From Hylemonella gracilis (GTDB taxonomy: Bacteria; Pseudomonadota; Gammaproteobacteria; Burkholderiales; Burkholderiaceae_C): a stretch of DNA of 64,000 nt. A program made the translations under genes and the position numbers. Shown one piece after another: positions 1 through 37,356 of this stretch. Positions within the stretch are counted from its first letter, which is position 1. Every line of letters starts with the position of its first letter. The notes under the pieces were generated by a model that saw nothing but the letters and a program-made list of their open reading frames with translations, ran no database searches and was not told the origin of the DNA. The stretch spans positions 2,133,501 through 2,197,500 of the forward strand of contig NZ_CP031395.1 of assembly GCF_004328645.1 (NCBI RefSeq), in the 5' to 3' direction.

Positions 1-1184
1 GCGAAACCGCGCCCCTGCTCGCCGGCGCGCGCGGCTTCCACGGCCGCGTTCAAGGCCAGGATGTTGGTCTGGAAGGCGATGCCATCGATCACGCCAATGA
101 TTTCAGAGATCTTGCGCGAGCTCTGGTTGATGCCCTGCATGGTCTGCACCACTTGGCCCACCACTTCGCCCCCGTTCATCGCGACCGTGTGGGCCTGCCG
201 CGCCAGCTCGTCGGCGCGCCCCGCGTTGTCGGCGTTCTTGCGCACCGTTGCGCCAAACTGTTCCATGGCGGCGGCGGTCTGCTCCAGCGAGCTGGCCTGG
301 CTTTCGGTGCGTGAGGCCAACTCAGCGTTGCCGCCCGCGATTTGCTCGGAGGCCAGCGACACTTCACGAGCTTCTTCCCGCACCGTGGCGACGATGCCTC
401 GCAGGCCCTGTTGCATGCGCGCGATCGTGGCCAGGACGCTGCGCTGATCACCCTCCCGAACCGCGAGCGCGGCGGACAGGTCGCCGGCCGCCACGGTGCT
501 GACCAAGTTGCGCATCTCGACCGGTTCCGCGCCCAGGTCGCGTCGCAGATTGCGCTCGATCAGCAGTCCGGCGGTGATCGCGAGGGCGATCGCCGCGACG
601 CAGACGGCGATCAGCAGCGCACGTTGACGTTCATAGGACTGGCGCGCGGCGGCCACGCGTTGGTCCGCGCGCTCCGCCGTGAACCGGGCGTAGCCGTCGG
701 TGGCCTGGATCAAACGCGCCAGCAAGGGGCGGCATTCCTCGTTCATCTTGCGGATGGCTTCCTCGCGTTGGCCACGCACGGCCAGATCCACGATGTTCAG
801 GGCGACTGGCGCGTACAGGGTTTCGATGGCCACGATGTCGTCGATGAATCGACGCGCCTGTTCCGACGCCTCCGGGTCCCTTCCCAACTCGGCTAGGCGT
901 CGCAGCGCCTCGGTGGCCTCTTGATGCGATTGCTGTGCGATGCGTTGTTCTCCAGCGATTTCCTCGGGCCGGGTGATGAGAACGAGGTTGCGGGCCGCGA
1001 TGGCGCGCTGGTCGACTGCGGCGCGCACCTGGGCCGCCGTGAGTGCGCGTGCGTTGATGCCGGTGAGGTAATTGTCGAAGCGGGCGTTCGCCTCGGAGAG
1101 CAGGTAGATCGCGAGCCCGATGGCCAGCAGAACGACGCCCACCACCGAGCCGAAAGCCAGCATGAGTTTGTAGCGTATGGTCAT
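1..1184 (-). CDS. Methyl-accepting chemotaxis protein, C-terminus cut off by the window edge
   Basis: This is a transmembrane chemoreceptor that would signal through CheA/CheW. Reading from ATG at 1184, the protein begins [11 protein letters not shown] and has a first hydrophobic helix within the first 30 residues. A four-helix-bundle-like periplasmic domain follows (motifs [10 protein letters not shown] and [13 protein letters not shown]), then a second membrane helix near residue 185 and a HAMP linker. The highly conserved signalling hairpin ([20 protein letters not shown], then RAGEQGRGF) lies at the very start of the window, so the C-terminal arm of the hairpin is missing. The gene lies 49 bases downstream of cfa and could be the last gene of that transcript, but no function link is visible. 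Family is sure; ligand unknown. Confidence 0.93.
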
Positions 1185-1233
1185 GAAGTCGATGAAGAGG
1201 GGTGGAAAAAAGAGAGGCCGGAATGAAGCGGGT

Positions 1234-2502
1234 TCACCGGGCGCCGGGCTTTGCGAGCAGCATGTGCACGTCGCCGAGGGCGCGTTCCTCGAAGCCGCCT
1301 TCACAGTAGCAGAGGTAGAAATCCCACATGCGGATGAACGTGTCCGTATAACCGAGTAGGCGCACCTCGCCCAGACGGGCCATGAAGCGCTCTCGCCAGT
1401 GACGCAGCGTGGTCGCGTAGTGCGGTCCGATGTCGTCGAGCTGTACCAGCTTCATGTCGGTCTTGGCCGTGATGGCGTTGAGCAGGGCCGTGATGGATGG
1501 GATGGTGCTGCCCGGGAAGATGTGGCGCTGGATGAAATCCACCGACTTGCGCGCCGCCTCGTAGCGCTGGTCGGCGATGGTGATGGCCTGCAGCAGCATC
1601 AACCCATCGTCCTTGAGCAGGCGCGCGCACTGCGCGAAATAGGTGCCGTAGAACTGGTGGCCCACGGCCTCGATCATCTCCAGAGACACCAGCTTGTCGT
1701 ACTGACCTTTCAGATCGCGATAGTCCTCCAGCAGCAGAGTGATGCGATCCTGCAAACCGGCGGCCGCCACGCGTTCACGCGCCAGCTCATACTGCTGGCG
1801 CGAGATCGTGGTGGTGGTCACGCGGCAGCCATAGTGCTGGGCCGCGTGGATGGCCATGCCGCCCCAGCCGGTGCCGATTTCGAGCAGGTGGTCATCCGGC
1901 CCCAACTTGAGGTGCCGGCACACCCGATGCAGCCGGGCTTGCTGGGCCTCTTCGAGCGTGGACTGCGGCGTCTCGTAGTAGGCGCAGGAATACATCAGGC
2001 TCGGGTCGAGGAAGAGGGCAAAGAAGTCGTTGCCCAGGTCGTAGTGCGCCGCGATGTTGCGGCGCGAGCCGCTGCGCGTGTTGCGATTGGTCCAGTGCAG
2101 GGCTTTCTGCAGCGGCGCGGTCAGCCGGGCAAGGCCACCTTCCATGCCGTCGAGCACCTCCCGGTTCTGCAGCAGGATGCGCATCAGGCCTGTCAGGTCG
2201 TCGCAGCGCCAGTAACCTGCCATATAGGCTTCGCCCGCGCCAATGGAGCCTCCGAAGGCCAGTTCGCCCCAGAAACGCGGGTCCAGCACGTCGAGCTGCA
2301 CGCTCATGGGGCAGTGCGCGCTGGGCGAGCCGTAGTCCGTGCGTTGGCCCCGCTCGATCAGGCTCACGCGGCCATGCCGGAGTTGCGCCAGGCGCGCACG
2401 CACGCCACGCTCGGCCAAGCCGTCGAGGAAGTGCGGTTTGGGGGTGTGGCCGGCGATGGAAGAAGGCCCGCTGGCGGGGGCGGTGTTCGCGACGGTGTTC
2501 AT
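1234..2502 (-). CDS. cfa: Cyclopropane-fatty-acyl-phospholipid synthase (last gene of the lipid operon)
   Basis: The 422-residue SAM-dependent methyltransferase transfers a methylene group to the double bond of unsaturated acyl chains in membrane phospholipids. The SAM site is visible as [16 protein letters not shown] around residues 205-220. The conserved [15 protein letters not shown] and MYSCAYY segments precede it, and SLEMIEAVG plus [11 protein letters not shown] follow. Length fits the CfaA family (about 380-420). The ATG overlaps the stop of the DUF1365 gene by four bases (ATGA), so translation is probably coupled. DUF1365 and flavin amine oxidase neighbours are the typical context of this Cfa subfamily in proteobacteria. 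The substrate here is inferred from the family. Confidence 0.93.
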
Positions 2503-3302
2503 GGCTTGGGCTCCTGCGGGGAGGTGGCGCTCGCCGGGGTGGGTTCAGGCGCGCGTTTGCTTGGATGGGTGTGGAAGGGCGTGCGCTTGAGCCACAGCCT
2601 GAGCGCCTGCCAGTGGATGCCGACGATCACTTGCGCGGTCATCAGCGGGAAGAACAGGAGCACGCGCGCGAGGCTGGCGCTGGTGATGGCCTGACGCTCC
2701 AGGGCCAGCGTGGCATCGAAGACCTTCTCGCCCGCCTGCAGGTTCTCCATGTGCACCGAGAGCGTCTGGCTCGGCGTAGAGAAGCGCCAGTCGTAGTCCT
2801 GCGCCATGGGCATGAAGGGCGAAACGTGGAAGTCCTTGGCGAAGCGGTGGCGATGCACATCGACTCGCGCCGCTTGCCCGTCCTGGGGCAGCACGTAGCT
2901 GTGCCGTTCTTTCCAGGGCGTGTTGGTGATCTCGGCGACGATGGTCTCCACCCGCGTGTCGGCCGCGTCGTGGACGTAATAGAACGTCACCGGGTTGAAG
3001 ACATAACCGAAGTAGCGCAGGTGCGTGAGCATGCGGATGGGGCCGTTCGGACGCTGACCTGTGACCTGGGCCACGCGCTGGCGCACGGCCTCGTCCAGTG
3101 GCTGGGCCGGGTCGCCCAGGTAGTCCGCGCGTTTGAAGCGGGCCAGGGCCAGGCGACGGGTGGACCAGAACCAGCGCCCCGCGAACGCGCGGTCCAGCTC
3201 GGCCAGGTCCAGGTAGACCATGTAGAGGCCATGGCGGAATTCATGTGCGTGAGGCTGGAAGCGGCGATGCCGCACGTGTCCCACGTAGAGCGCGCTATAC
3301 AT
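2499..3302 (-). CDS. DUF1365 domain-containing protein
   Basis: The start is taken at the ATG giving MYSALYVGHVRHRR, because this is where the conserved family begins and because it overlaps the upstream amine oxidase stop by eight bases. That gives 267 residues. Family landmarks are HVRHRRFQPHAHEF near the N-terminus, VNPVTFYYVHD around residue 100, and a conserved HVSPFMPM segment around residue 150. The biochemical role of DUF1365 is not firmly established. The family is nearly always encoded between a flavin amine oxidase and a Cfa-type methyltransferase, as here, and related clusters respond to singlet oxygen. A role in modifying unsaturated membrane acyl chains is inferred from that context. 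Confidence 0.9.
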   Translation of the reverse strand: MYSALYVGHVRHRRFQPHAHEFRHGLYMVYLDLAELDRAFAGRWFWSTRRLALARFKRADYLGDPAQPLDEAVRQRVAQVTGQRPNGPIRMLTHLRYFGYVFNPVTFYYVHDAADTRVETIVAEITNTPWKERHSYVLPQDGQAARVDVHRHRFAKDFHVSPFMPMAQDYDWRFSTPSQTLSVHMENLQAGEKVFDATLALERQAITSASLARVLLFFPLMTAQVIVGIHWQALRLWLKRTPFHTHPSKRAPEPTPASATSPQEPKP

Positions 3303-4545
3303 GGCCGCGTGCCTTGAAATGTTGCAGCGCGGCCAGGGCGCTGACCACACCGTCCTCGTGGAAGCCGTAGCGCCAGTAGGCACCGCAGTAATAGGTGTTC
3401 AGCGGGCCGTTGATCTCGCCTTGGCGCGCTTGCGCGGCCACCCCGGCACGGGTGTAGAGCGGATGTTCGTAGGGGATGCGCTTGATCACCTTGGCCGGGT
3501 CGATGGCGTCGCCATGGTTGAGCGTGACCAGCACTGGCGAGGGCGTGTCCAGCGATTGCAGGATGTTCATGTTGTAGGTCAGCGCGACCCGGCCCGTGTC
3601 CTGGGGTAGCACGTGGTAGTTCCACGCGGCCCAGGCCCGGCGCGCGCGCGGCAGCAGTCGCATGTCGGTGTGCAGCACCGCCTCATTGGGCTGATAGCGG
3701 ATGGCGCCCAACACCTCGCGCTCGGCCGCGCTGGGGTCGGCCAACAGACGCAGGGCCTGGTCGCTGTGGCAGGCCAGGAAGACCGCGTCGTAGCGCTCGG
3801 CCGTCTGGCCCTGCGCCTGCACCCAGGCATGGTCACCTTCGCGGCGGATCGACTGCACTGGCGTGTTCAGGCGGATCCGGTCGCGAAAGGGGGCCACCAG
3901 GGCTTCGACGTACCGCGCGGAACCGCCCCGGATCACGCGCCACTGTGGGCGTTCGTTGACCGAGAGCATGCCGTGGTTGTGGAAGAAGCGCACGAAGTAG
4001 CGGGCCGGGAAGGCCAGCATGTTCACCGGGTCGGTGGACCAGATGGCCGCGCCCATGGGCACGACGTAATGGTCGATGAAGTTGCGCGTGTAGCGCCCCC
4101 GTTCCAGGTAGTCACCCAGCGTGATGTCCTCGGCGCTGTCCTGCAGCAGGGCCGGCGCTTCGCGGTTGAAGCGCAGGATGTCACGGATCATGCGCAGGAA
4201 GGCGGGGCGCAGCAGGTTGCGCCTTTGCGCGAACAAGGTGTTGAGCGTGGTTCCGTTGTATTCCAGGCCGCTGCGTTCGTCGCGCACCGAGAAGCTCATG
4301 CTGCTGGGCTGCGAGGCCACGCCGAGTTCGTCGAGCAGGGCGATGAAGTTCGGGTAGGTCCAGTCGTTGTAGACGATGAAGCCCGTGTCCACCTGATGGC
4401 GGACGCCGCCCAGCTGAATGTCATGGGTGTGGGTATGGCCACCGACATGGGCGCCGGCTTCGTACACCGTGATGTCATGTCCGCGCGCAAGATGGTGCGC
4501 GACCACGTTGCCGGCGATGCCGGTGCCGACGATGGCGATCCTCAT
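3295..4545 (-). CDS. FAD-dependent amine oxidase-family oxidoreductase of the Cfa/DUF1365 cluster
   Basis: The 416-residue protein opens with a dinucleotide-binding fold, MRIAIVGTGIAGNVVAHHL, followed by YEAGAHVGGHTHTH. This marks the NAD(P)/FAD amine oxidase-like family found beside DUF1365 and Cfa. The start is set at this ATG because everything upstream in frame lacks family similarity and the ATG overlaps the desaturase stop as ATGA. Other recognisable segments are DTGFIVYNDWTYPNF (about residue 60) and AAIWSTDPVNML (about 170). Homologues are annotated as amine oxidases but probably act on lipid, not on amines. Desaturation or oxidation of methylated acyl chains, as in furan fatty acid synthesis, is one candidate role. 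Family certain, reaction uncertain. Confidence 0.9.
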   Translation of the reverse strand: MRIAIVGTGIAGNVVAHHLARGHDITVYEAGAHVGGHTHTHDIQLGGVRHQVDTGFIVYNDWTYPNFIALLDELGVASQPSSMSFSVRDERSGLEYNGTTLNTLFAQRRNLLRPAFLRMIRDILRFNREAPALLQDSAEDITLGDYLERGRYTRNFIDHYVVPMGAAIWSTDPVNMLAFPARYFVRFFHNHGMLSVNERPQWRVIRGGSARYVEALVAPFRDRIRLNTPVQSIRREGDHAWVQAQGQTAERYDAVFLACHSDQALRLLADPSAAEREVLGAIRYQPNEAVLHTDMRLLPRARRAWAAWNYHVLPQDTGRVALTYNMNILQSLDTPSPVLVTLNHGDAIDPAKVIKRIPYEHPLYTRAGVAAQARQGEINGPLNTYYCGAYWRYGFHEDGVVSALAALQHFKARGHV

Positions 4546-5498
4546 GCCGGGCCCCCCGGTTGGTCTTCGGGGTTCGAGGGGGCCGTACGGCCTCCCGCGC
4601 GAATGGCCTCGGGCACGGGCCGCAGGTCGCGGATCAATCCCAGCACCGCCAGCGCGCGCAGGCCGCAATAGGTGAGGTCGATTTCCCACCAGTAAAAGCC
4701 CTGGCGTGCCGAGCCGGGGTAGCGGTGGTGGTTGTTGTGCCAGCCTTCGCCGAAGGTGAGCAGGGCCAGCCAGAAGTTGTTGCGCGAGGTGTCACGCACG
4801 GCGTACCGCCGGCTGCCGACCTTGTGCGCCATCGAATTGACCAGAAAGGTCGCGTGGTAGAGCGCGACGGTGGAAACGCAGAACCCCCAGACCAGCAGCA
4901 TGGGTCCGTCCGTGCCCAGCGCGGGCCAGGCGGTGGCCAGCCATTCGCCTGTGCCGTAGAGGCCCAGGGCGAGCAGCAGGGGCACGAGCACGTCGAAACG
5001 ATCCAGGAAGCGAAGCTCGGGATAACGCGCCAGGTCGGGGACCTGGGCCACGCGCGTGGCGAAGTTCTCCCGTGCGAGGAACCAGCCCATGTGGGACCAC
5101 AACAAGCCGTGTTGGCGCGGGGAATGCGCATCGGTCTCGCGGTCGGCGTGCGCGTGGTGGTGCCGGTGGTGCGATGCCCACCACAGCGGGCCGCGCTGGA
5201 CCGCGCTCGCGCCGAGCACGGCGAAGACCAGTTGCATGGCGCGCGAAGCGCGGAAGGCCTTGTGCGAGAAGTAACGGTGGTAGAAGCCCGTGATGGCGAA
5301 CATGCGCAACGCGTAGAGCGCCACGGCCACGGCCAGCGCGGTTGGGCTCACGCCCGTCCAGAAGGCGGCCAGGCAAGCCAGATGCAGGCCAATGAAGGGC
5401 AGCACGCGCAGCCAGTCGATGCGGCGCGTGGGCTTGCCGTTGGGAAGGGAGGGATCAGCGACGGAGTTGTTGTCGAACCAGGCTAGCAAGCTGCGCAT
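4542..5498 (-). CDS. Membrane acyl-CoA/acyl-lipid desaturase (delta-9 type)
   Basis: This is an integral-membrane di-iron desaturase of about 318 residues. All three histidine clusters are visible: HRYFSH near residue 75, HHRHHHAHAD near 110, and HNNHHRYPG near 255. Hydrophobic segments flank them. The product would introduce a double bond into a saturated acyl chain using oxygen and electrons from a reductase not encoded here. The ATG at 5498 is preferred over the GTG immediately upstream because an AAGGAG ribosome-binding site lies five bases before it; that ATG shares one base with the lipocalin stop. In this operon the desaturase could supply the cis double bond that the Cfa-type enzymes modify. 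Confidence 0.92.
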   Translation of the reverse strand: MRSLLAWFDNNSVADPSLPNGKPTRRIDWLRVLPFIGLHLACLAAFWTGVSPTALAVAVALYALRMFAITGFYHRYFSHKAFRASRAMQLVFAVLGASAVQRGPLWWASHHRHHHAHADRETDAHSPRQHGLLWSHMGWFLARENFATRVAQVPDLARYPELRFLDRFDVLVPLLLALGLYGTGEWLATAWPALGTDGPMLLVWGFCVSTVALYHATFLVNSMAHKVGSRRYAVRDTSRNNFWLALLTFGEGWHNNHHRYPGSARQGFYWWEIDLTYCGLRALAVLGLIRDLRPVPEAIRAGGRTAPSNPEDQPGGPA

Positions 5499-6058
5499 CA
5501 CTGCTCCTTGGCCGAAGGCCAGTGCTGCGGCACCTTTTGCAGCTGGTTGACGTCGTAGCCTAGCGCGCCGACGTGGCGCACCAGGGTAGCGTAATCAGTG
5601 TCCGAAATCGAGGGTGTGCGCGCCATGATCCAGACATAGTCACGCGCCTGGCGCGCAATCACGGTCTGGCTGTAGTCCGGGTTCAGGAAAGTGATGCGGT
5701 AGTCGGCCTTGATGGGCCACACGAACTGCATGCCCCACAAGGCATTGCTCGAATCCTGCACGAAACCGCGCGGGTGGTAGACCTTCTCGGCACCGTCGAA
5801 ACCGTCGGCGCGGAAGCGGAAGGTTGTGGCGATGCTGCCGTCCGTGTCCAGGCGGTAGCTTTCAACGGCGTTGTGCGCGCCCCGTTCGATGAAGGTGGGG
5901 ATGTTGGCGATGACGTACCAGTCGCCCATGAAGCGTGGCAGGTCTACCTGGGTCACTGTCGGCATGGGGGTCGCGGGGCTGGTCTGGCAGCCGGACAGCG
6001 TGCCGACGAGGCCACTCAGGCCAAGTATCGCGAGGAAGGGGATGAGTCGTTGCAGCAT
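5498..6058 (-). CDS. Lipocalin-family outer-membrane lipoprotein (Blc-like)
   Basis: The 186-residue protein has a lipoprotein signal peptide (MLQRLIPFLAILG) ending in the lipobox LSGC at about residues 21-24, so Cys24 should be lipidated. The lipocalin signature GDWYVIANIPTF follows about 20 residues into the mature protein, and the C-terminal half has YRITFLNPDYSQTVIARQ and YVWIMARTP, as in bacterial lipocalins such as Blc. Family members bind lysophospholipids or fatty acids. Inside a lipid-modification operon a role in lipid carriage or repair at the envelope is reasonable. Its stop shares a base with the desaturase start, which suggests coupled expression. Confidence 0.92.
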   Translation of the reverse strand: MLQRLIPFLAILGLSGLVGTLSGCQTSPATPMPTVTQVDLPRFMGDWYVIANIPTFIERGAHNAVESYRLDTDGSIATTFRFRADGFDGAEKVYHPRGFVQDSSNALWGMQFVWPIKADYRITFLNPDYSQTVIARQARDYVWIMARTPSISDTDYATLVRHVGALGYDVNQLQKVPQHWPSAKEQ

Positions 6059-6094
6059 GGTCGTGTCGGGTGGTGAAGCAATTGAATTGCCTGG

Positions 6095-6817
6095 TCAGAA
6101 GCGCTGGTAGCGCAGGGTTCGGCCGCCGGTGACGCGGGATTCGAGTTGCACCCAGTCGTCGGCGCCGTCGTACCAGAGGTCGATCTGCAGATCCTCGCCG
6201 CGCAACGCATAACGGCGCGCACTCGTGGGCGTGCCGAGCACGGTCAGCGTCTCCGTGCCCCGGGGCTCGATGCGCACGTCTTGCCAGAGCCCAGTCTGAC
6301 TGTTCAGCAGCCGGGTCTGCTGGCGCATGCGCGGGTTCCAGTAGGCGAAACTCATCACGCAGCCCGTCATCTGTTCCTGGCCCTTGGGGCCGTCCACCGC
6401 GAAAGCCTCTGCGCGACGTTCACCCCGCACCGCCAGGATGTCGCCGTTGTCGTCGGTGCGAGCTTCGATGCGCGTCAGACAATCACCTTGCCAGCGCTCA
6501 CGGGCCTCGTGGGCGTAGCGGTAGGCATTGAGGAAAAGAAAGCGGACCGTGAAGCGTGCCTCGCTGCGCACCTCGCGCTCGCCACGCTGGGGCTCGTCAC
6601 TGACGCGAAAGCTGTGGGTACCAACCTCGTCGTCGTCGAGCAGCACGCGGAATTGCCAGACGCGTTCACTGGCCCAAGCCGTGGTGGAGCCAAGCCCGAA
6701 CCCGAACGCGAGGGGTATCGCGATCAGGCTGCCTCGCAAGCAAGCCCTGAGCCCGTGGGCCAGTCTCGCCGGCGTCGTTGAGTGGCCCGGCCTGCGCGGC
6801 AAGGAGCCGTGGTTCAT
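6095..6817 (-). CDS. Secreted protein of the DUF6134-like family
   Basis: The start at MNHGSLPRRPG is chosen because its ATG overlaps the stop of the DUF1295 gene by four bases. It gives 240 residues with an N-terminal basic stretch and a hydrophobic core (GSLIAIPLAFGFGLG) followed by TTAWAS, which looks like a Sec signal peptide with cleavage after Ala. The mature part is beta-rich, with WQFRVLLDDDEVGTHSF and later VMSFAYWNPRM; this matches my memory of DUF6134. No catalytic motif is evident. The family accompanies DUF1295, DUF2878 and lipocalin genes in similar clusters, so a periplasmic job connected with modified lipids is inferred only from context. Confidence 0.78.
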   Translation of the reverse strand: MNHGSLPRRPGHSTTPARLAHGLRACLRGSLIAIPLAFGFGLGSTTAWASERVWQFRVLLDDDEVGTHSFRVSDEPQRGEREVRSEARFTVRFLFLNAYRYAHEARERWQGDCLTRIEARTDDNGDILAVRGERRAEAFAVDGPKGQEQMTGCVMSFAYWNPRMRQQTRLLNSQTGLWQDVRIEPRGTETLTVLGTPTSARRYALRGEDLQIDLWYDGADDWVQLESRVTGGRTLRYQRF

Positions 6818-7602
6818 GCGCGCTCCTTCGGGAACCAGGGCAGGAAAGCGTTGGTGCGCCGGATGTAGTCGGCGTAAGCGGGCCGGCGCTCGGTGATGTC
6901 CTGCTCCAGCAGGGCCACGCCCGACACCTTGAGCAGCAGCAAGGTCATGAGCAGTGGGGCATACACGGTCCACCAGCCACCGGCCGGGATGGCGATCAGG
7001 AAAAAGCCCCACCACAGCAAGGCCTCGCCGAAGTAGTTGGGGTGGCGGGTGTAGCGCCACAGACCGGTGTCCAGCACGCGACCCCGCTGAGTCGGATCGC
7101 TCTTGAAGCGGGCGAGCTGCGCATCGCCCACGGTTTCGAAGAACATGCCGAGCAGCCAGGCGATGGCGCCCAGGGCGTCCACCCAGCCCAGGGGCGCGGG
7201 GCTGGCCAGGGCGGTGAACAGGGGCGCGGCGATGATCCAGGCCAGCAGCACCTGCAGGCCGAAGACCAGGTACAGGCTCTTGAAGGCGAAGCCCGGCTCA
7301 TTGCGCGCGCGGATGACCTGATAGCGGTGGTCTTCGGGCTGACCCCAGTTGCGCCAGGTCAGGTAGATCGAGAGGCGCAAGGACCAGACCAGCAAGAGGC
7401 CGAGCAGCAGCAGGGCGCGGGGTCCCGGGCTGGTCAGGCCAGTCTGGGCAATCACATGGACCCAGGCACCGAGCAGAAAGAACAGCGACCAGAGGCTGTC
7501 GACGATGCTCACGTCGCGCCGGGCCAGGCTGAGCAGCCAGCCGGCGATGCCCAGCAGACTCATGGCGAGCAGGGCCCAGAGGGCGGCATTCCAGTCAAAC
7601 AT
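6814..7602 (-). CDS. DUF1295 membrane protein (steroid 5-alpha-reductase-like fold)
   Basis: The product is a multi-spanning membrane protein of 262 residues when started at MFDWNAALWALLAMSLLG; this ATG overlaps the DUF2878 stop by eight bases. The conserved DUF1295 signatures are visible: DVSIVDSLWSLFF near residue 30, LRLSIYLTWRNWG near 85, and GLWRYTRHPNYFGEALLWWG near 190. The latter resembles the NADPH-binding end of steroid 5-alpha-reductases and isoprenylcysteine methyltransferases. Members are predicted NADPH-dependent reductases of membrane lipids, but a substrate has not been settled. Its place between the DUF2878 and DUF6134-like genes suggests a shared lipid pathway. Confidence 0.9.
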   Translation of the reverse strand: MFDWNAALWALLAMSLLGIAGWLLSLARRDVSIVDSLWSLFFLLGAWVHVIAQTGLTSPGPRALLLLGLLLVWSLRLSIYLTWRNWGQPEDHRYQVIRARNEPGFAFKSLYLVFGLQVLLAWIIAAPLFTALASPAPLGWVDALGAIAWLLGMFFETVGDAQLARFKSDPTQRGRVLDTGLWRYTRHPNYFGEALLWWGFFLIAIPAGGWWTVYAPLLMTLLLLKVSGVALLEQDITERRPAYADYIRRTNAFLPWFPKERA

Positions 7603-8146
7603 GGGAAGTCTCCAGAGTCGTGGGAGGCGTGATCGCACGAAAGCCGTCGAGGCGGCGCGCGATCAGGCACAGAAGGGGCGTGATGAGGGCCCAGCCGATG
7701 GCCAGCAGGGGCAGGGCGAGGTTGCTGTCGGGCAGGGACAGGGCACCAAGCCTGGCGCCGGCCAGATAGGCCAGTGGCCCACCCACTGCGCCCAGGATGG
7801 CGGCGCCCAGCAGGTGTTGCTTGAGCCAGGCCAGGCTGACGTTGAGTGTCGTGGCGAACAACACCCACAGCGCGACCATCCAGTGCGCGGCCGTGCCCTC
7901 GATCAGCACGCCGTTGGCGAAACGCACCAGACCGCTGGCGGCGAGCGCGGAATCCCAGAGCGCGCCCACCAGGGCCGCGATCAGGACCAGTCCGAACTCG
8001 GGACGCGCGTCGTCCGCGCGGCTCAGGTGCCAGGCCAGGGCCAGCAGTGCAAAGGCCGTGCCGGCCCAGGGCCAACCTCGGGCCGCGCCGAGCACGCAGA
8101 CCAGCCAGCCGGTCTGATAGATCAGGAAGTTGATGAGCTTGCGCAC
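7595..8146 (-). CDS. DUF2878 membrane protein
   Basis: I start this at the GTG giving VRKLINFLIYQTGWLVCVLG. The open frame extends further upstream but that part lacks family character, and 183 residues matches the usual DUF2878 length of about 170. Five or so hydrophobic helices are visible, with the conserved WLVCVLGAARGWPWAG and LIAALVGALWDSAL segments. Function is unknown. In other proteobacteria DUF2878 occurs in the same set with DUF1295, Cfa-like methyltransferase and the amine oxidase, often under photo-oxidative stress control. It lies 85 bases after the methyltransferase stop, the only sizeable gap in the operon, and could have an internal start of transcription there. Confidence 0.82.
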   Translation of the reverse strand: MRKLINFLIYQTGWLVCVLGAARGWPWAGTAFALLALAWHLSRADDARPEFGLVLIAALVGALWDSALAASGLVRFANGVLIEGTAAHWMVALWVLFATTLNVSLAWLKQHLLGAAILGAVGGPLAYLAGARLGALSLPDSNLALPLLAIGWALITPLLCLIARRLDGFRAITPPTTLETSHV

Positions 8147-8231
8147 GGGGGCCTCTGGGTCAGGAACATGGGGGTATCGGTGGCGTGAATGCGGGTCGTT
8201 GTGTCTTGGTGGGGGGGCGGCGTTCGCAGCC

Positions 8232-9311
8232 TCAGGCATTGGGGCGTTCGAACAGGTAGTGGCTGACCCACCACTGCTGACCGTTCTCGTAGCCAAACAA
8301 CTCCGCGCAAGCCATGAAGAAAATGCGCCAGCGCTGGAACCACTGGGCAGCCTGCTTCGGGCCGTAGGTCGCGGCCAGCACCGGCAAGACCTCGGCGCGC
8401 CGGGCATCAATGTTGCGCAGCCAGGCATTGGCGGTCTTCTCGTAGTGCGTGCCGTCCCAGCGCCAGCGGCGCAGCAGTCGCAGGTCGCGCTGGAAATGCA
8501 GGGCCATGTCGTCGCTGGGCATCATGCCGCCGGTGAAGAAGAACTGGCTCATCCAGTCGCTCTCGTCGCGCACCTCGAAGGCGTAGGGCACGGCGCGGTG
8601 CACGAAGACATGCATGAAGAAGCGCCCTCCCGGCAGCAGCCACCCGTGCACGCGGCGGAAGATTTCGTCCCAATTGCGCATGTGCTCCAGCATCTCGACC
8701 GAGACCACGCGGTCGTACTGCTCCGGCGCAGCGAAGTGGTTCATGTCCTTGGTGATCACGGTCACGTTGTCGAGCTTGCGGCGCAGTGCCTCGGCCATGA
8801 TGTGTTCGCGCTGGGAGTTGGAGTTGGACACCGCCGTGATGCGTGCGTGCGGGTAATGCTCGGCCATCCACAGCGTGAGCGAGCCCCAGCCGCAACCCAA
8901 CTCCAGGATGCGCTGGCCATCGGCCAGATCGGCGTGTTCGCAGGTCGCCGCCAGACCGCGCGCCTCGGCGTCGTCGAGGGTGTGCACGCCTTCGGGCCAC
9001 CAGGCCGAACTGTATTTGCGGTGCTTGCCCAGGGCATGGCGGAAGAACTCGGCCGGCACTTCGTAATGCTGGGCGTTGGCGGCTTCTGGCACCAGGGCCA
9101 CGGGCAGGTGGGGCAGGGCCGCGATGAAGCGCGCCGCGTGTTCAGCACCGGCCTCGGCATCGTCGGCCTCAATCTCCCGCAGGCGCTCGCCCGTGAGACG
9201 GCGGATGCCGTATCGGATCAGGGCGTCGGGCAGATGGCCCTGTTCGGCCCAGCGCAGTGCGAGGGACACTGGCGCGTTCGAGGGCGGTGCGTTCCGGGTC
9301 AGGGCGGTCAT
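8232..9311 (-). CDS. Second Cfa-like SAM-dependent methyltransferase
   Basis: This 359-residue protein is a class I SAM methyltransferase of the cyclopropane synthase superfamily. The glycine-rich site ILELGCGWGSLTLWMAEHYP lies near residues 150-170, followed by ITAVSNSNSQREHI and VVSVEMLEHMRNWDEI. It is distinct from the canonical Cfa at the far end of the operon: shorter, without the usual Cfa C-terminal end. Homologues are found beside DUF2878/DUF1295, and some methylate unsaturated acyl chains without ring closure (the UfaM role in furan fatty acid synthesis), which is an attractive but unproven assignment. The ATG lies four bases after the photoreceptor stop, so it is the first gene coupled to that regulator. 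Confidence 0.88.
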   Translation of the reverse strand: MTALTRNAPPSNAPVSLALRWAEQGHLPDALIRYGIRRLTGERLREIEADDAEAGAEHAARFIAALPHLPVALVPEAANAQHYEVPAEFFRHALGKHRKYSSAWWPEGVHTLDDAEARGLAATCEHADLADGQRILELGCGWGSLTLWMAEHYPHARITAVSNSNSQREHIMAEALRRKLDNVTVITKDMNHFAAPEQYDRVVSVEMLEHMRNWDEIFRRVHGWLLPGGRFFMHVFVHRAVPYAFEVRDESDWMSQFFFTGGMMPSDDMALHFQRDLRLLRRWRWDGTHYEKTANAWLRNIDARRAEVLPVLAATYGPKQAAQWFQRWRIFFMACAELFGYENGQQWWVSHYLFERPNA

Positions 9312-9315
9312 GGGT

Positions 9316-10239
9316 TTACTCCGAAGGATTGAGGGTGAGGTGCAACTGGCGCAGCCCGCGGGTGATGTCCGTGCCCAGGGGGATGGCGCCTGCGGCGCGC
9401 AGTTCGTCGTGCTGATGCACCGAGGTCGGGCCACCGACGAAGACCGGGATGGCCGCGTCGCGCAGGAGGGTGGGCAAGGCTTCGGCGTACAGCGACGCGG
9501 GCGCCTCGATCGAGCCCGACAGCACGATGCCGGCGGCCTGGGTGCGCTGCGCGGCGTAGGTCAGTTGGTCCAGTGGCATGTTGGCGCCGAGCAGGACCAT
9601 GCGGTAACCCTGTTCGTGCGCGGCCAGCGCGAACAGCAGCAGGCCGATTTCATGGTGTTCACCGGGCAGGCAGGCCGCCACCAGCTTGGGGCCGACCACG
9701 GCGCGGCTGCGGTGGTGCAGGCGCGCGCCCAGTTTGATGCGCATGTACATGCCGAAGAAATGCTCTTCCGCAATGCCGCCCGGGTGGTTGTCCCAGCGCT
9801 GGCCCAGGTCCACCAGCAGGGGCAGCAGCAGCTTGGCCGTGACTTGCTCGATGGCATGCACCGCCAGCAATTCGTTGTACAGCGTCTCGAGCCGTGTTTC
9901 GTCGAAGCGGGAGATGGCGTCCACCATCTGCGCGCGCGCGCGGACCCAGGGACCTTCGTCGGCGGCGGGTGGGGACGGCGAACGCGCTTGCGCGGCCAGG
10001 GCCTCGCGCACATGGCCGATGGCCACGCCCGAATCCACCAGGGACAGGATGCGGCGCACCGCGTCGATGTCGGCTCGGGTGTAGACCCGGTGCCCCGTCG
10101 CCGTCCGCGTCGGGCGGATCAGCCCATGGCGGCGCTCCCAGGCGCGCAGGGTGATCGGATTCACACCGGTCAGCGTGGACACGGTGCGGATCGGAAAGAA
10201 CTCCTGGGCGGTGACGTCTTGCGACGGATCAGTCGGCAT
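9316..10239 (-). CDS. carH: MerR-family regulator with B12-binding domain, CarH/LitR-type photoreceptor
   Basis: The 307-residue regulator has a MerR winged helix at residues 14-75 (FPIRTVSTLTGVNPITLRAW, RRHGL, GHRVYT), a helical bundle at about 100-175 and a cobalamin-binding Rossmann domain after that. The bundle contains W149 with E159 and H160, which is the W-x9-E-H signature that caps adenosylcobalamin in CarH. The B12 domain contains E194-x-H196-x-x-G199, supplying the lower axial histidine. In known CarH proteins a dark tetramer represses and light breaks the Co-C bond to release DNA. The ATG at 10239 is preferred over a TTG five codons upstream. It heads the nine-gene lipid operon, and direct repeats fitting a CarH operator lie just upstream. 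Confidence 0.92.
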   Translation of the reverse strand: MPTDPSQDVTAQEFFPIRTVSTLTGVNPITLRAWERRHGLIRPTRTATGHRVYTRADIDAVRRILSLVDSGVAIGHVREALAAQARSPSPPAADEGPWVRARAQMVDAISRFDETRLETLYNELLAVHAIEQVTAKLLLPLLVDLGQRWDNHPGGIAEEHFFGMYMRIKLGARLHHRSRAVVGPKLVAACLPGEHHEIGLLLFALAAHEQGYRMVLLGANMPLDQLTYAAQRTQAAGIVLSGSIEAPASLYAEALPTLLRDAAIPVFVGGPTSVHQHDELRAAGAIPLGTDITRGLRQLHLTLNPSE

Positions 10240-10246
10240 GCGTATC

Positions 10247-10276
10247 TTGTACAAAAGTTGTACATAATTTATACGA
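10247..10276. promoter_or_regulatory. CarH-type operator: three 11-bp-spaced nTnTACAn repeats
   Basis: TTGTACAA at 10247-10254 and TTGTACAT at 10258-10265 both fit the CarH half-site nTnTACAn and start exactly 11 bases apart. A third, degenerate copy (TTATACGA, 10269-10276) keeps the same spacing. The array begins eight bases upstream of the carH ATG, so a bound tetramer would sit over the transcription or translation start. A TATAAA that could be a -10 (minus strand) lies inside the array. Autorepression in the dark is the inference. Confidence 0.72.
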
Positions 10277-10494
10277 ATACCGATTCATCAGGATGTTTTG
10301 GGGATATTTTTTAAATAATCTATACAAAACCAGTGCAAATATGGATGTAAACCCAGTATTTTGGTGATGACAGCAAGGCGCTTGTACAGCGCTTGCTCAG
10401 CGGTGGGCAGGCAGGGACAGGCCTCCGCCTATCGAGGGTGCCGCATCTTTCCGTCTTGGGTCGGCGCAGGCCGCTCGATGGGCCTCGGGCTGGT
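10277..10494. other. Non-coding AT-rich interval between hslR and carH
   Basis: No supported gene is seen here. The interval is markedly AT-richer than its surroundings at 10261-10370 and must hold the carH-operon promoter. An imperfect hairpin at 10372-10397 (AGCAAGGCGC, loop TTGTACA, GCGCTTGCT) could end hslR transcription, though no clear T tract follows on the minus strand. Confidence 0.5.
10309..10327. promoter_or_regulatory. Possible second CarH-type site pair
   Basis: CTATACAA at 10320-10327 fits nTnTACAn fully. A weak copy (TTTTAAAT) begins 11 bases before it at 10309. A further full match, TTGTACAG, lies at 10382-10389 inside a small hairpin. These may extend the operator region or be chance matches in AT-rich DNA. 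Confidence 0.35.
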
Positions 10495-10926
10495 TCAGTC
10501 CAGTGAGGCGCTCCAGCGCTCGCCCCAGTTGCTGGAATCGGCCTGCGGCCCGCCGCGCTCACGGTCGAGCTGGCGGCGGTCGCGTTTGGTGGGGCGGCCC
10601 TGGGCCAGCGAGAGCGCGGGCTCGGCCGCCAGGCGGTGCTGCTCGGCAGCGGCCGCGCGGTGCGCGATGGACTCGGGGGTCTCTTCGTAAAGCAGGGCCG
10701 CCACCGGGGCCGGACCGCGTTGCGCACTCAGGGCCCGCACGAGCACCGTGCGCTCCATCGCACCTTGGCGCAGTTCCACCATGTCGCCGGGCCTGAGTTC
10801 ACGCGCGGGCTTGGCAACCTGGCCGTTCACGCGCGCGCGGCCTTTGCCGATTTCCTCGGCGGCCAGGGACCGGGTCTTGTAGAAGCGCGCGGCCCAGAGC
10901 CATTTGTCCAGCCGCATTGTGTTCAT
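10495..10926 (-). CDS. hslR: S4-domain RNA-binding protein, Hsp15 (HslR) family
   Basis: The 143-residue protein begins MNTMRLDKWLWAARFYKTRS, a classic S4 RNA-binding start, followed by GRARVNGQVAKPARELRPGD. HslR/Hsp15 binds free 50S subunits carrying nascent chains and helps recycle them after heat shock. The C-terminal tail is long, basic and low in complexity (GRPTKRDRRQLDRERGG), as in betaproteobacterial members. ATG at 10926 is taken; a second in-frame ATG three codons on is equally possible. It stands alone, transcribed toward carH. Confidence 0.88.
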   Translation of the reverse strand: MNTMRLDKWLWAARFYKTRSLAAEEIGKGRARVNGQVAKPARELRPGDMVELRQGAMERTVLVRALSAQRGPAPVAALLYEETPESIAHRAAAAEQHRLAAEPALSLAQGRPTKRDRRQLDRERGGPQADSSNWGERWSASLD

Positions 10927-22494: not shown

Positions 22495-23856
22495 TCACTG
22501 TGGGGCGGGCTTGCCTTTCGAGGGGACGATGCCTGGGCCGCAGGCCCGGGCGGCGGCGATGCCGCTGCGCACGGCGCCTTCCAGAGTGGCGGGGTAGGGC
22601 CCCGCCACGTAGTCGCCGCAGGCGTGCAGATCGGGGCCGATGGACGCTGGGGGACGCTGCAGGCCGGGTGTGCAGGCAAAGGTCGCGCGTTTCTCGACGA
22701 CGGTCTGCACGGCTTGTAGCGCCAGGCCCAATTGTTCCCGTGCCTGCTGCAGCACTTGTATTTCGATGTCTTCGCGCTCGCCTGTGCTCGCGCTGACGAC
22801 AAAGGCCAGCAGGCCCTGGCTCTGGCCGGAGGCGTCCAGTTGCCCGCGGTCGAAGACGAATTGCGCGGGGCAGCGCGCCGAGCTGGGCAGGGCCAGCATG
22901 GGCGCGTGCAATCGGGCCTGGGGTGCCCAGGCGTAGACCGTGCTGATGACGGTGTGGTGCAGGGCCTGGGCCCGTGCCGCCCAGGCCGGGTGCGATTCGC
23001 GCGTCAGCCGTGCCGCCTCGGGGGCGGGACAGGCGAGGAGGATGGCGTCATGGCCCTGTAGCTCATGCAAGTCACGCACGCGTTCGCCCAAGCGCAGGAC
23101 GGCACCGCGTGCCTGCAGCCAGCGCAGGGCGGCTTCAGGGAAGAGCGTTCCCAGGTCCACGCGCGGCAGCAGCAGGTCGGCCCCGTCGGGCGTCAAGAAC
23201 AGCGCGTCGCGCAGCACACGCAGCAAGACCTCGGCGCTGGCTTCGTGGGCTGGGGTGTTGAGCGCGGACACGCACAGCGGCTCGATCAGCTCGGTCAGCA
23301 CGCGTGGGCCGATGATGCCAGGCGGATGGGCGCAGAGCTCGGCCACGCTCCAGGTGGCATCGCACTGAAAGCCGGAGCGTTGCCAACCCAGCGCGGCGCG
23401 CAGGAGGCCAAGGCGTTCGCGCCAGGGCCAGGACGGGTGCCGCAGCACGCCGACCAGCACGCGCCAGGACGCGGGCATGAAGGCCGGCAGACGCGGCAGG
23501 CGCAGGCCCTCGCCGTCAGGGCCGACCAGTGTCAGGGGCAGGCGCAACAGGGCCCCGTCCTGGGCGGCGTTCGGGCCGGTGTCCGTGGTCACGCCCACCG
23601 TGCGCAGCAGGCGCAGGGTCTCGGTGTAGGCGCCGATCAGGATGTGCTGGCCGTTGTCCAGCGTCAGCGTCCGCCCATCGGGCAGAGGCAGGTCCACGCC
23701 GCGGGCCCGCCCACCCGCAGTGCGCGCGGTGTCGTGCAGCGTGATTTGGTGGCCGGCTTGCGTGGCCGTGATGGCGGCGGCCAGACCGGCCCAGCCGGCT
23801 CCGACGATGGCGATCTTCACGGCGGTTGTGACGCGAATGCCGGCCGAGCCATGCAC
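22495..23856 (-). CDS. hpnE: Hydroxysqualene dehydroxylase HpnE
   Basis: A 453-residue FAD enzyme that reduces hydroxysqualene to squalene in the HpnCDE route. The FAD-binding motif VKIAIVGAGWAGLAAAITAT lies near the N-terminus, then GGRARGVDLPLPDGRTLTL and LDNGQHILIGAYTETLRLLR, which is diagnostic for HpnE. The C-terminus has the GDYVAGPYPATLEGAVRSG flavin segment. ATG 23856 is used; a GTG at 23820 (directly before KIAIVG) is a real alternative and neither has a good ribosome-binding site. It follows hpnD by 25 bases. hpnC is at 36.4 kb and no squalene cyclase is in the window. Confidence 0.92.
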   Translation of the reverse strand: MHGSAGIRVTTAVKIAIVGAGWAGLAAAITATQAGHQITLHDTARTAGGRARGVDLPLPDGRTLTLDNGQHILIGAYTETLRLLRTVGVTTDTGPNAAQDGALLRLPLTLVGPDGEGLRLPRLPAFMPASWRVLVGVLRHPSWPWRERLGLLRAALGWQRSGFQCDATWSVAELCAHPPGIIGPRVLTELIEPLCVSALNTPAHEASAEVLLRVLRDALFLTPDGADLLLPRVDLGTLFPEAALRWLQARGAVLRLGERVRDLHELQGHDAILLACPAPEAARLTRESHPAWAARAQALHHTVISTVYAWAPQARLHAPMLALPSSARCPAQFVFDRGQLDASGQSQGLLAFVVSASTGEREDIEIQVLQQAREQLGLALQAVQTVVEKRATFACTPGLQRPPASIGPDLHACGDYVAGPYPATLEGAVRSGIAAARACGPGIVPSKGKPAPQ

Positions 23857-23881
23857 GCCGGACCGAGCCTGCGCAGGATCT

Positions 23882-24775
23882 TCACAGCCGGCCCAGGGCC
23901 TGGACCTTCCAGGCCAGCCAGAGCTTGCGCAGCGGTGTCAGGGCGATGCGCTGGTGCAGCACCTGGAAGTCGTCGCGTTCGATCTCGCCCAGCAGGGTGC
24001 GGTAGATGCTGGCCATCATCAGGCCGGGCTTCTGCGCGCGACGCTCGGCCGCGGGCAATTGGGCGTGCAAGGTCAGCGCCTCGTCGTACAAGGCCTGCGC
24101 CCGTTCGGCCTGGAAGCGCATCAGCGCGATGAAACGCTCCGAATACTGGCGGTTCAGGATTTCATGGGCCTTCACGTCGAAGCGCTGCAGCTCGTTGATC
24201 GGCAGGTAGACGCGCCCGCGCAGGGCGTCCTCGCCCACGTCGCGAATGATGTTGGTGAGCTGGAAGGCCAGGCCCAGGGTGTGGGCGTAGCGTGTACGAC
24301 CTTCGTCCAGGGCCGGATCCGCCACGCGCGAACCGCCAAAGATGCTGGCCGCCACTTCGCCCACCACGCCCGCGACCAGGTGGCAGTAGCGTTGCAGACC
24401 GGGGTAGTCCAGGTAACGGCTTTGCTGCAGGTCCATCTCGCAGCCTTCGATGACGGCCAGCAAGTGCCGCGCCTCGATGCCGTAGGTCGCGACATGCGGC
24501 ATCAGCGCCTGCAGCACGGGGTGGCCGGGCTGGCCTTGCCAGGCACGCCGCACCTCGGCTTGCCACCAGGCCAGTTTGGCGGCGGCCACGCCTGGGTCGT
24601 TGACTTCGTCGACCACATCGTCCACTTCGCGGCAGAAGGCGTAAAACGCCGTGATCGCAGCGCGCCGGGGCGCGGGCAGAAAGAGAAAAGCGTAATAAAA
24701 GCTGCTGCCCGAGGCAGCGGCCTTGTCTTGGGCGTACTGCGCGGGGGAAGGCGACGAAGGAGCATGAACCGGCAT
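23882..24775 (-). CDS. hpnD: Presqualene diphosphate synthase HpnD
   Basis: This 297-residue prenyltransferase condenses two farnesyl diphosphates into presqualene diphosphate. Both aspartate-rich motifs are visible: FCREVDDVVDEVND near residue 50 and LTNIIRDVGEDALRGRVYLP near 170; SSFYYAFLFLPAPRR precedes the first. The start is placed at MPVHAPSSPSPAQYAQ because upstream in-frame codons lack family similarity. It is followed by hpnE in the same direction, so the two are probably co-transcribed. Product use (hopanoids or other squalene derivatives) cannot be decided here. Confidence 0.93.
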   Translation of the reverse strand: MPVHAPSSPSPAQYAQDKAAASGSSFYYAFLFLPAPRRAAITAFYAFCREVDDVVDEVNDPGVAAAKLAWWQAEVRRAWQGQPGHPVLQALMPHVATYGIEARHLLAVIEGCEMDLQQSRYLDYPGLQRYCHLVAGVVGEVAASIFGGSRVADPALDEGRTRYAHTLGLAFQLTNIIRDVGEDALRGRVYLPINELQRFDVKAHEILNRQYSERFIALMRFQAERAQALYDEALTLHAQLPAAERRAQKPGLMMASIYRTLLGEIERDDFQVLHQRIALTPLRKLWLAWKVQALGRL

Positions 24776-25001
24776 GGCTCGGCATTCTCCCATGCCGGGC
24801 TTCATGGATCGCACGGTGCTGGTTCTGTTTGGAATGGATTCGAGGGTTTACCCTGGTGCCATCGCAGACGCAACGTCTTGTTAACAAGAGCCAGCCAATG
24901 CCGACAATCTATGTACTATCCACAGGCGCCTGAAGCGTTGGCAGGCCCGGGCCACAATCGGCCCCTTTTCCTTTTGCTTGATCAGAAGAAAGTCGATCCA
25001 G

Positions 25002-36417: not shown

Positions 36418-37356
36418 TCAAGGTGGTTGGTTCAAGGTGGTTGCGCGCATTCCGATGGCACGCCACAGCAGCAGCGCTGTGTCGGCCGCGGTGATGCGTG
36501 GCCGGAGCTGCAGGGGGTTGCAGCCCTGGGCCTCGATCTTGTCGAGGATGCGCAGGCCGCCTTGCACGACGAAGCGCAACTCCCAGGCCATGCGGCCGGG
36601 CACGCGGTGCACCAGCGGGGCGCCTTGCCGCATCAGGTTGCGCGCCCAGGCGCAGCAGTCGGCGATCAGGGCCTGCGTTTGCGGGGTGCTGTGCAGCGCG
36701 TGCAAGTCCGCGTCGTTCACGCCATGGGCGGCGCGGTCGGCTGCCGTCAGGTAGTGGCGACCACGCGGGATGTCCCGGCTGAGGTCCTGCCAGAAATTGA
36801 TCAGTTGCAAGGCCGTGCAGATGGCGTCGCTTTGCGCCAGCGACGCTGGGTCACCGATGCCATGAAGGTGCAGCATCAGGCGGCCGACCGGGTTGGCGGA
36901 TCGACGGCAGTAGTCCAGCAGTTCGGCGCGATCGGCGTAGGCCGCGCCAGGGGCCTTGCCCTGTTCGGTCTGGCGGGTCTTTTCCACGTCTTGCATGAAG
37001 GCGGACAGCAGATCAGTCAGCGGGGCTTCTGGAAGCTGGAAGTCATGGACGGCGAGGCGCAGCGGGCCGAAGATGTGGGGCCAACGCGACGCGGCTGCGG
37101 CAGCGGCGGCAGGGCCAACGGGCACGGAAGGGGCAAAGCAGGCCAGCAGCTCGGCCCGGTAGGCCGCCAGATCGGCCAGCCGTTGCGTGGCTGGTGCATC
37201 GCCCTCGTCGGCCAGGTCGTCGGCCGTGCGGGCGTAGTGGTAAAGCGCCCGAACCGGCGCACGCAAACGGGGCGGGCACAGTACCGAGGCGACAGGGAAG
37301 TTTTCGTAATGCTGGATCGAGGAAGCTTCGTTCACGACAGGGAGATGGCTTGACAA
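36418..37356 (-). CDS. hpnC: Squalene synthase HpnC (hydroxysqualene-forming)
   Basis: A 312-residue prenyltransferase homologue that converts presqualene diphosphate to hydroxysqualene. It starts with the family hallmark IQHYENFPVASVLCPPRLRA, then YARTADDLADEGDAPATQRL near 40 (first Asp-rich motif) and LINFWQDLSRDIPRGRHYL near 185 (second motif). The open frame begins at a TTG; a GTG at 37335 (before NEASSIQHYENF) is the other option and neither has a clear ribosome-binding site. It is separated from hpnD and hpnE by about 12 kb. A TetR-type palindrome lies just upstream, between it and the RND efflux genes. Confidence 0.92.
   Translation of the reverse strand: MSSHLPVVNEASSIQHYENFPVASVLCPPRLRAPVRALYHYARTADDLADEGDAPATQRLADLAAYRAELLACFAPSVPVGPAAAAAAASRWPHIFGPLRLAVHDFQLPEAPLTDLLSAFMQDVEKTRQTEQGKAPGAAYADRAELLDYCRRSANPVGRLMLHLHGIGDPASLAQSDAICTALQLINFWQDLSRDIPRGRHYLTAADRAAHGVNDADLHALHSTPQTQALIADCCAWARNLMRQGAPLVHRVPGRMAWELRFVVQGGLRILDKIEAQGCNPLQLRPRITAADTALLLWRAIGMRATTLNQPP

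Follow-up and report, generated by a model that had tools for sequence, protein, structure and literature searches.

A predicted B12 photoreceptor of the CarH kind precedes a probable furan-fatty-acid-type operon in Hylemonella gracilis

Does Hylemonella gracilis use light, sensed through cobalamin (B12), to switch a set of membrane-lipid genes? The question is raised by a stretch of 64,000 nt from contig NZ_CP031395.1 (assembly GCF_004328645.1, positions 2,133,501 to 2,197,500; in the following, the window), where the gene of a CarH/class I LitR-type regulator (9316..10239, minus strand) is directly followed by nine tightly packed genes on the same strand. An initial annotation, made from the letters alone, had claimed a CarH-type B12 photoreceptor with operator repeats in front of a nine-gene lipid operon, acting in place of the extracytoplasmic function (ECF) sigma factor/ChrR system. 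According to our analysis, the operon is likely to be controlled by an adenosylcobalamin (AdoCbl)-dependent repressor that is released by light (class I LitR/CarH), and it is best read as being of the furan-fatty-acid type.

The regulator comprises 307 aa (ATG at 10239) and matches the Pfam families MerR_1 (58.8 bits), B12-binding_2 and B12-binding, all three above their curated cut-offs; that is, it combines a MerR helix-turn-helix (HTH) domain, a four-helix cap and a B12-binding Rossmann domain. Its recognition helix is of the RxWERRY type and reads LRAWERRH (LRAWERRY in most relatives). The best solved-structure matches are the Thermus CarH structures, and the predicted fold is that of CarH. 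The motif residues named by the initial annotation are in place, i.e., W149-x9-E159-H160 (Wx9EH) within the four-helix bundle and the axial-ligand motif E194-x-H196-x-x-G199, with the W, E and H of the cap as well as the axial His kept in 31/31 rows of our regulator alignment A2. Furthermore, the light signature of B12 photoreceptors, given as GxxW, EH, GxxH and GxxxP (PMC11796333), is complete (G146xxW149, E159H160, G193xxH196, G218xxxP222). The published B12 motif is worded D/ExHx2G-x41-SxT/V-x22-27-GG (PMC9304148), to which E194xH196xxG199-x41-S241, a spacer of x25 and G269G270 fit, whereas the T/V position is occupied by Ser (S243; see below).

The predicted operator (10247..10276, minus strand) is located upstream of the regulator's ATG and comprises two TGTACA repeats at 11 bp and one weaker repeat (GTATAA). 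Here, the minus-strand repeats ATGTACAA (10265-10258) and TTGTACAA (10254-10247) follow each other at exactly 11 bp, as had been noted for nTnTACAn direct repeats, and the weaker third one, CGTATAAA (10276-10269), is found 11 bp further upstream. The minus strand before the ATG thus reads as three 11-bp units starting CGTATAA, TGTACAA and TGTACAA. Within the genome of 3,822,245 bases, TNTACA-N5-TNTACA occurs at a single place, namely this operator, and the same holds for the looser pattern TRTAYA-N5-TRTAYA. The block TGTACAACTTTTGTACAAGA, which forms the operator core, is identical in two Hylemonella gracilis genomes. The sites bound by CarH of Thermus and Bacillus are direct repeats of 11 bp in tandem, with T-N-N-ACA (PMC9304148), and the window's site is predicted to be of this published kind. 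The surrounding A+T-rich region (10240..10400, minus strand; 37% GC compared to 65% in the window) is where the promoter of the ten-gene unit is expected, and given this stretch upstream of the regulator, one promoter probably drives all ten genes. In other loci of our survey (L084, L085, L088; see below), TTGACA and TATAAG/TACAAT are seen by eye 16-17 bases apart, with the repeats over the -10 element; in L051, L057 and L060, the first repeat is TTGACA.

The nine minus-strand genes begin 4 nt after the regulator's stop with MT2 (8232..9311), an S-adenosylmethionine-dependent methyltransferase resembling cyclopropane fatty acid (CFA) synthases (CMAS family). There follow membrane proteins with DUF2878 (7595..8239; longer start scanned, start inferred from gene spacing) and DUF1295 (6814..7602; steroid 5-alpha-reductase-like), a DUF6134 protein (6095..6817), a Blc-like lipocalin (5498..6058) and a fatty acid desaturase (4542..5501). 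The unit closes with a UfaD-type FAD amine-oxidase-like enzyme (3295..4545; nearest solved kin LkcE), a UfaO-type DUF1365 protein (2499..3302) and a UfaM-type CFA-family methyltransferase (1234..2502), i.e., the second CMAS protein. All genes were assigned by domain match, those of UfaD, UfaO and UfaM with gene order in addition; DUF1365 is the domain carried by UfaO (PMC7380195). The DUF6134 and lipocalin genes are separated by 36 nt, and the remaining operon neighbours overlap by 4-8 bases when the nearest start is taken. The amine-oxidase/FAD, DUF1365 and CFA-family genes stand together in the order of ufaD-ufaO-ufaM in Rhodopseudomonas palustris (RPA2571-2569), and this R. palustris trio is sufficient to yield the furan product in Rhodobacter sphaeroides (PMC7380195). 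The lipid operon claimed at the outset is thereby refined to the furan-fatty-acid type, and it probably makes light-protective furan fatty acids. MT2 matches plant coclaurine N-methyltransferase (6gkv, 4.4e-67), its nearest solved kin, more closely than CFA synthase (6bqc, 3.7e-26), and on present evidence it is therefore not to be called a cyclopropane synthase. Its likeness to plant benzylisoquinoline N-methyltransferases spans nearly the full length.

Next, we considered whether regulator and operon recur together. One similarity scan of genome contigs provided 31 loci, of which 25 relatives were kept; six Spirosoma loci (L062-L067) were dropped, since their match is confined to the HTH. 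The records of these relatives are beta- and gammaproteobacterial, with one from Mariprofundus. Most of them (16/25) adjoin an MT2-led operon, some incomplete: ten are in line from MT2 to UfaM (several without a DUF6134 or desaturase match), three are cut by a contig end, and three are on the opposite strand (L061 at a distance of 2.9 kb). Another 3/25 adjoin ufaD-ufaO-ufaM alone. A strict search for the cap plus G[ED]xHxx[GP] is passed by 23/25 relatives, with L053 and L061 deviating. One extra cap residue (W-x10-EH) is found in L037 and L038, the two closest relatives (both Hylemonella gracilis), and also in L050 and L061, such that the proteins closest to the window's regulator would escape a strict Wx9EH filter. 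Among 200 genomes of the window's family (own included), one other has a close regulator match (G199, 57% identity; contig of L041), and the best matches within two genomes of the window's genus show 28-29% identity. Given this patchiness, horizontal gain of the locus is possible.

The operator spacing recurs as well. Considering the upstream regions of 26 regulators (window and 25 relatives), a T.TACA tandem at 11 bp is present in 13/26; when the spacing is varied between 6 and 23 bp, the other values give 0-3 (3 at 22 bp), and dinucleotide shuffles give a mean of 0.013. The 13 carriers include the window's regulator and those of two Hylemonella gracilis genomes, three close relatives that do not count as independent. 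A scan of 84 loci (1.42 Mb) yields 36 TRTAYA tandem sites at 11 bp vs. 0-12 at each of 12 other spacings (7 to 19); two of the loci are duplicates (L050=L072, L052=L087), counted twice here and once in the MT2 tree, the distance test and the bit-score count below. Nearly all of these sites (34/36) precede a CarH-type regulator or the first operon gene; the other two lie 1.2 kb upstream of the regulator (L042) and before a weaker MerR (L106). In four loci, the tandem marks the operon promoter with the regulator elsewhere, as control in trans predicts: for genomes G283 (L071) and G351 (L085) the site precedes MT2 and the full regulator is on another contig, and for G242 (L084) and G557 (L088) the nearest regulator is ~4-6 kb away.

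Separately from the regulator-similarity scan, we surveyed 369 class-level genomes for DUF2878, which is present in 59 (window's included), and read the neighbourhoods of the other 58 (59 loci, L071-L129). An MT2-first operon is found in 18 genomes, again including the window's. A regulator with >300 bits to the profile of A2 occurs in 15 genomes, 14 of them MT2-first, and 12 of those 14 keep W149, E159, H160 and H196 (G361 has His at E194). A MerR-type regulator with the four key B12 residues, as read for regulators inside the fetched loci, is present in 12/18 MT2-first vs. 2/41 other genomes (G352, G446; Fisher p 1.2e-6), or vs. 3/41 if G565 is counted too (p 5e-6). This residue-based count supersedes the one by bit score alone (14/18 vs. 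1/41, p 3e-9), and since the genomes are related, the p-values are a guide only. The G565 protein (L110:5628-6695), located ~3 kb from the DUF2878 gene, has cap (GRLWHAGDVSVAEEH) and axial-His (GNAHDIG) residues, fails the MerR-HTH pattern and is perhaps another kind of B12 light sensor.

The survey also relates the operon to ChrR. Above the cut-off, ChrR is found in 6/59 DUF2878 genomes (a further 25 show weaker matches that stay below it) and in 0/14 MT2-first genomes with a CarH-like regulator; it adjoins the MT2-first operon in G241 and G381. At the thresholds used, the MT2-first genomes G365 and G227 have neither a CarH-like regulator nor ChrR. In a quick MT2 tree (45 rows, SH-aLRT only, CarH label by bit score; root and direction not settled), the ChrR pair nests among CarH-labelled rows (99, starred), next to G292 and G412, which suggests that the operon had one sensor replaced by another. 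The distances among regulators correlate with those among operons (r 0.73-0.87; Mantel test, 18 loci with all five genes), although much of this correlation could stem from a common species history. A second operon layout places ufaD-ufaO-ufaM first, then DUF2878 and often DUF1295 and MT2; in two such loci, L111 (G471) and L116 (G542), ChrR is located upstream.

Family, fold, motif residues, operator, gene order and recurrent linkage are read directly from the sequences. Several observations weigh against the light-released repressor and its furan operon. The NCBIfam model NF052513 (TransRegCarH) is missed by far (133.5 vs. 400 bits). This equivalog model is narrower than the CarH definition in the literature; the regulator is therefore placed in the CarH family by published motifs, and outside the equivalog. 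Two residues past S241, Ser (S243) is found where the published motif has V/T. W149 is followed by Asp150, and the His that gives the bis-His light state of Thermus thermophilus CarH (TtCarH) is present in 0/31 rows, which predicts that this state cannot form likewise here. The residue after Trp varies among other tested B12 photoreceptors, which also lack the TtCarH His (PMC11796333); Asp150 is thus no argument against light sensing. TtCarH G160, R176 and D201, which we take to be interface residues, are replaced by R179, H195 and N220, such that the oligomer behaviour may differ. The assignment of UfaD, UfaO and UfaM relies on domains and order rather than on the R. sphaeroides proteins themselves, and a promoter scan of 1000-10560 shows no consensus sigma-70 promoter before the ten-gene unit. 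With regard to the relatives, the strict tandem is absent from 13/26 upstream regions, 6/25 have neither an MT2-led nor a ufaD-ufaO-ufaM operon within the stretch fetched, and 6/18 MT2-first genomes are without a regulator keeping the four B12 residues. Finally, the related regulators of G292 (L141) and G412 (L143) lost B12-ligand/cap residues and yet have 11-bp TRTAYA tandems upstream, i.e., the module can work without B12; an independent origin of B12-free CarA-like regulators is possible for these two.

We infer AdoCbl binding, light response, repression, oligomer change and lipid product within the following scheme. In the dark, AdoCbl would be held by H196 from below and by the W149/E159/H160 cap from above, such that the protein assembles and, sitting on the 11-bp repeats at 10247-10276, blocks transcription of the nine lipid genes as well as of its own. 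Light would split the Co-C bond, weaken the assembly and allow expression of the operon, whose products would modify membrane acyl chains, most likely to methylated furan fatty acids: UfaM would methylate, UfaD desaturate and UfaO close the furan. The resulting fatty acids would protect the membrane from photo-oxidation. As for the cofactor, a BtuR/CobO adenosyltransferase (205 bits) is encoded in the genome. It is found in the same stretch as a cobalamin riboswitch (L069:2261-2497), which precedes a BtuB-like receptor and further B12 genes in a row; BtuB, CobB, CobU, BtuF/C/D, CobW and CobN are read by eye in this stretch.

The alternative that survives best keeps this regulation and changes the product, i.e., a cyclopropane, a methyl-branched chain or a non-furan product of MT2/DUF2878/DUF1295. 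It draws on the CFA-family membership of UfaM, on the plant N-methyltransferases as nearest solved kin of MT2, and on five members without assigned role (MT2, DUF2878, DUF1295, DUF6134, lipocalin). Against it, ufaD-ufaO-ufaM adjoin in the order known from R. palustris, and the R. palustris trio is enough for the furan product in R. sphaeroides (PMC7380195); we consider another product possible but rather unlikely.

A sensor of AdoCbl supply is a second alternative: scarce AdoCbl would let the apo-protein leave the operator and turn the operon on, with light as a side effect. Cofactor level should also affect any CarH-type switch, and B12 supply is regulated, given the B12 gene stretch with its own cobalamin riboswitch. 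On the other hand, the regulator's light signature is complete, ufaM is induced by light in Pseudomonas (PMC9758184), and two of the six class members away from the operon are found near DNA photolyase genes (L049:10901-12349, L054:7170-8615), which renders supply sensing improbable. Even less probable is a class II LitR/CarA-like regulator that does without B12 and is released by a short LOV protein as partner photoreceptor, or by some other protein. Such a pair, PmlR2/PmSB-LOV, is published with the ufaM operon in Pseudomonas (PMC9758184), and the B12 residues are lost in G292 and G412; still, class II is defined by the four-helix B12 subdomain only and has one of the two B12 domains, while the window's regulator has the Rossmann B12-binding domain in addition, and axial His and cap residues stand in all A2 rows. 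That an ECF sigma/ChrR singlet-oxygen system controls the operon, with the adjoining regulator incidental, is hardly credible despite ChrR adjoining this operon type in G241 and G381 and the rise of furan fatty acids on chrR loss in R. sphaeroides (PMC7380195), given 0 ChrR (TIGR02451) matches at E 0.001 in the window's genome, the 4 nt between regulator and MT2, and operators that stay with the operon promoter when the regulator gene is located away from it.

We also considered targets besides the operon. A carotenoid target was rejected: no carotenoid synthase is found in the genome, where SQS_PSY matches just two proteins, the hopanoid ones HpnD (window 23882-24814) and HpnC (36418-37356). 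hpnE and hpnD stand together (22495-24814), with HpnE just below its cut-off (275.8 vs. 283.05), and hpnC is ~11.6 kb off with transporter and other genes in between. As both tandem patterns are confined to the operator described above, the photolyase at C1:173027 is not predicted to be controlled by the regulator; looser operators were not searched genome-wide. Among the remaining operon-free relatives, fasciclin-domain proteins are encoded near the regulators of L041 (8891-9949) and L055 (9049-9510) in divergent orientation, with TGTACA-like repeats in the shared intergenic stretch of L041; L045 is near DCC1-like and short-chain dehydrogenase/reductase (SDR) proteins and L040 near a glutathione S-transferase.

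The sole genome place with the tandem operator is a membrane-lipid operon promoter, in a genome where no carotenoid synthase was found, and five genes without assigned role are placed in one unit with the regulator and the ufa genes. We give about even chances to the wider view of a separate, widespread light-to-membrane module, i.e., a B12 photoreceptor clade (beta-/gammaproteobacteria, Mariprofundus) that mainly switches on the nine-gene furan-fatty-acid operon, with MT2, DUF2878, DUF1295, DUF6134 and lipocalin as its extended pathway. In this view, membranes would be armoured upon light, ahead of singlet oxygen formation, and the operon would have been rewired between AdoCbl-CarH, B12-independent LitR-like regulators and ChrR. 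Respective loci provide a natural series, with one operon linked to CarH, to relatives without B12 residues, or to ChrR. This makes a question testable: are furan fatty acids in non-phototrophs controlled by light itself via B12, not by singlet oxygen? That light can control ufaM is already known from Pseudomonas, where a class II LitR and a LOV protein are used (PMC9758184). Among the open-literature matches listed, there is no report of a B12-type CarH before a furan-fatty-acid operon, nor of the operator, the spread or the ChrR swap of a B12-type regulator on this operon; an earlier mention is possible.

CarH is known mainly as a carotenoid switch. With CarH of Thermus thermophilus, the window's regulator shares the MerR HTH, four-helix cap and B12 Rossmann domain, Wx9EH, ExHxxG and the tandem 11-bp T-N-N-ACA operator (PMC9304148). 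It differs in preceding lipid instead of carotenoid genes, in an identity of ~31% within the cobalamin domain and in having no His after the Trp. RSP1091-1090 (ufaD, ufaO) of R. sphaeroides are under Sigma-E/ChrR control instead of that of a B12 photoreceptor. These furan-fatty-acid enzymes agree with the window in domains and order, whereas ufaM is located elsewhere (RSP2144) (PMC7380195). The blue-light response of Vibrio cholerae (MerR/ChrR) likewise involves a MerR-type regulator and induces a CFA-like synthase, but is tied to reactive oxygen species and ChrR (PMC5241685); Vibrio LitRs are class IV without B12 domain (PMC9758184), which VCA0056 would belong to. In Pseudomonas, PplR/PmlR belong to the same regulator family; their sites are of the T(G/A)TACA type, and the operon induced by light there comprises ufaM together with genes for an FAD oxidoreductase and hypothetical proteins (PMC9758184). 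In contrast to the window, ufaM is induced under a B12-independent class II LitR in which only one B12 domain out of two is left and which an illuminated short LOV protein releases, the sites read TGTACA-N12-TGTACA, and the gene set includes a photolyase and an SDR (PMC9758184).
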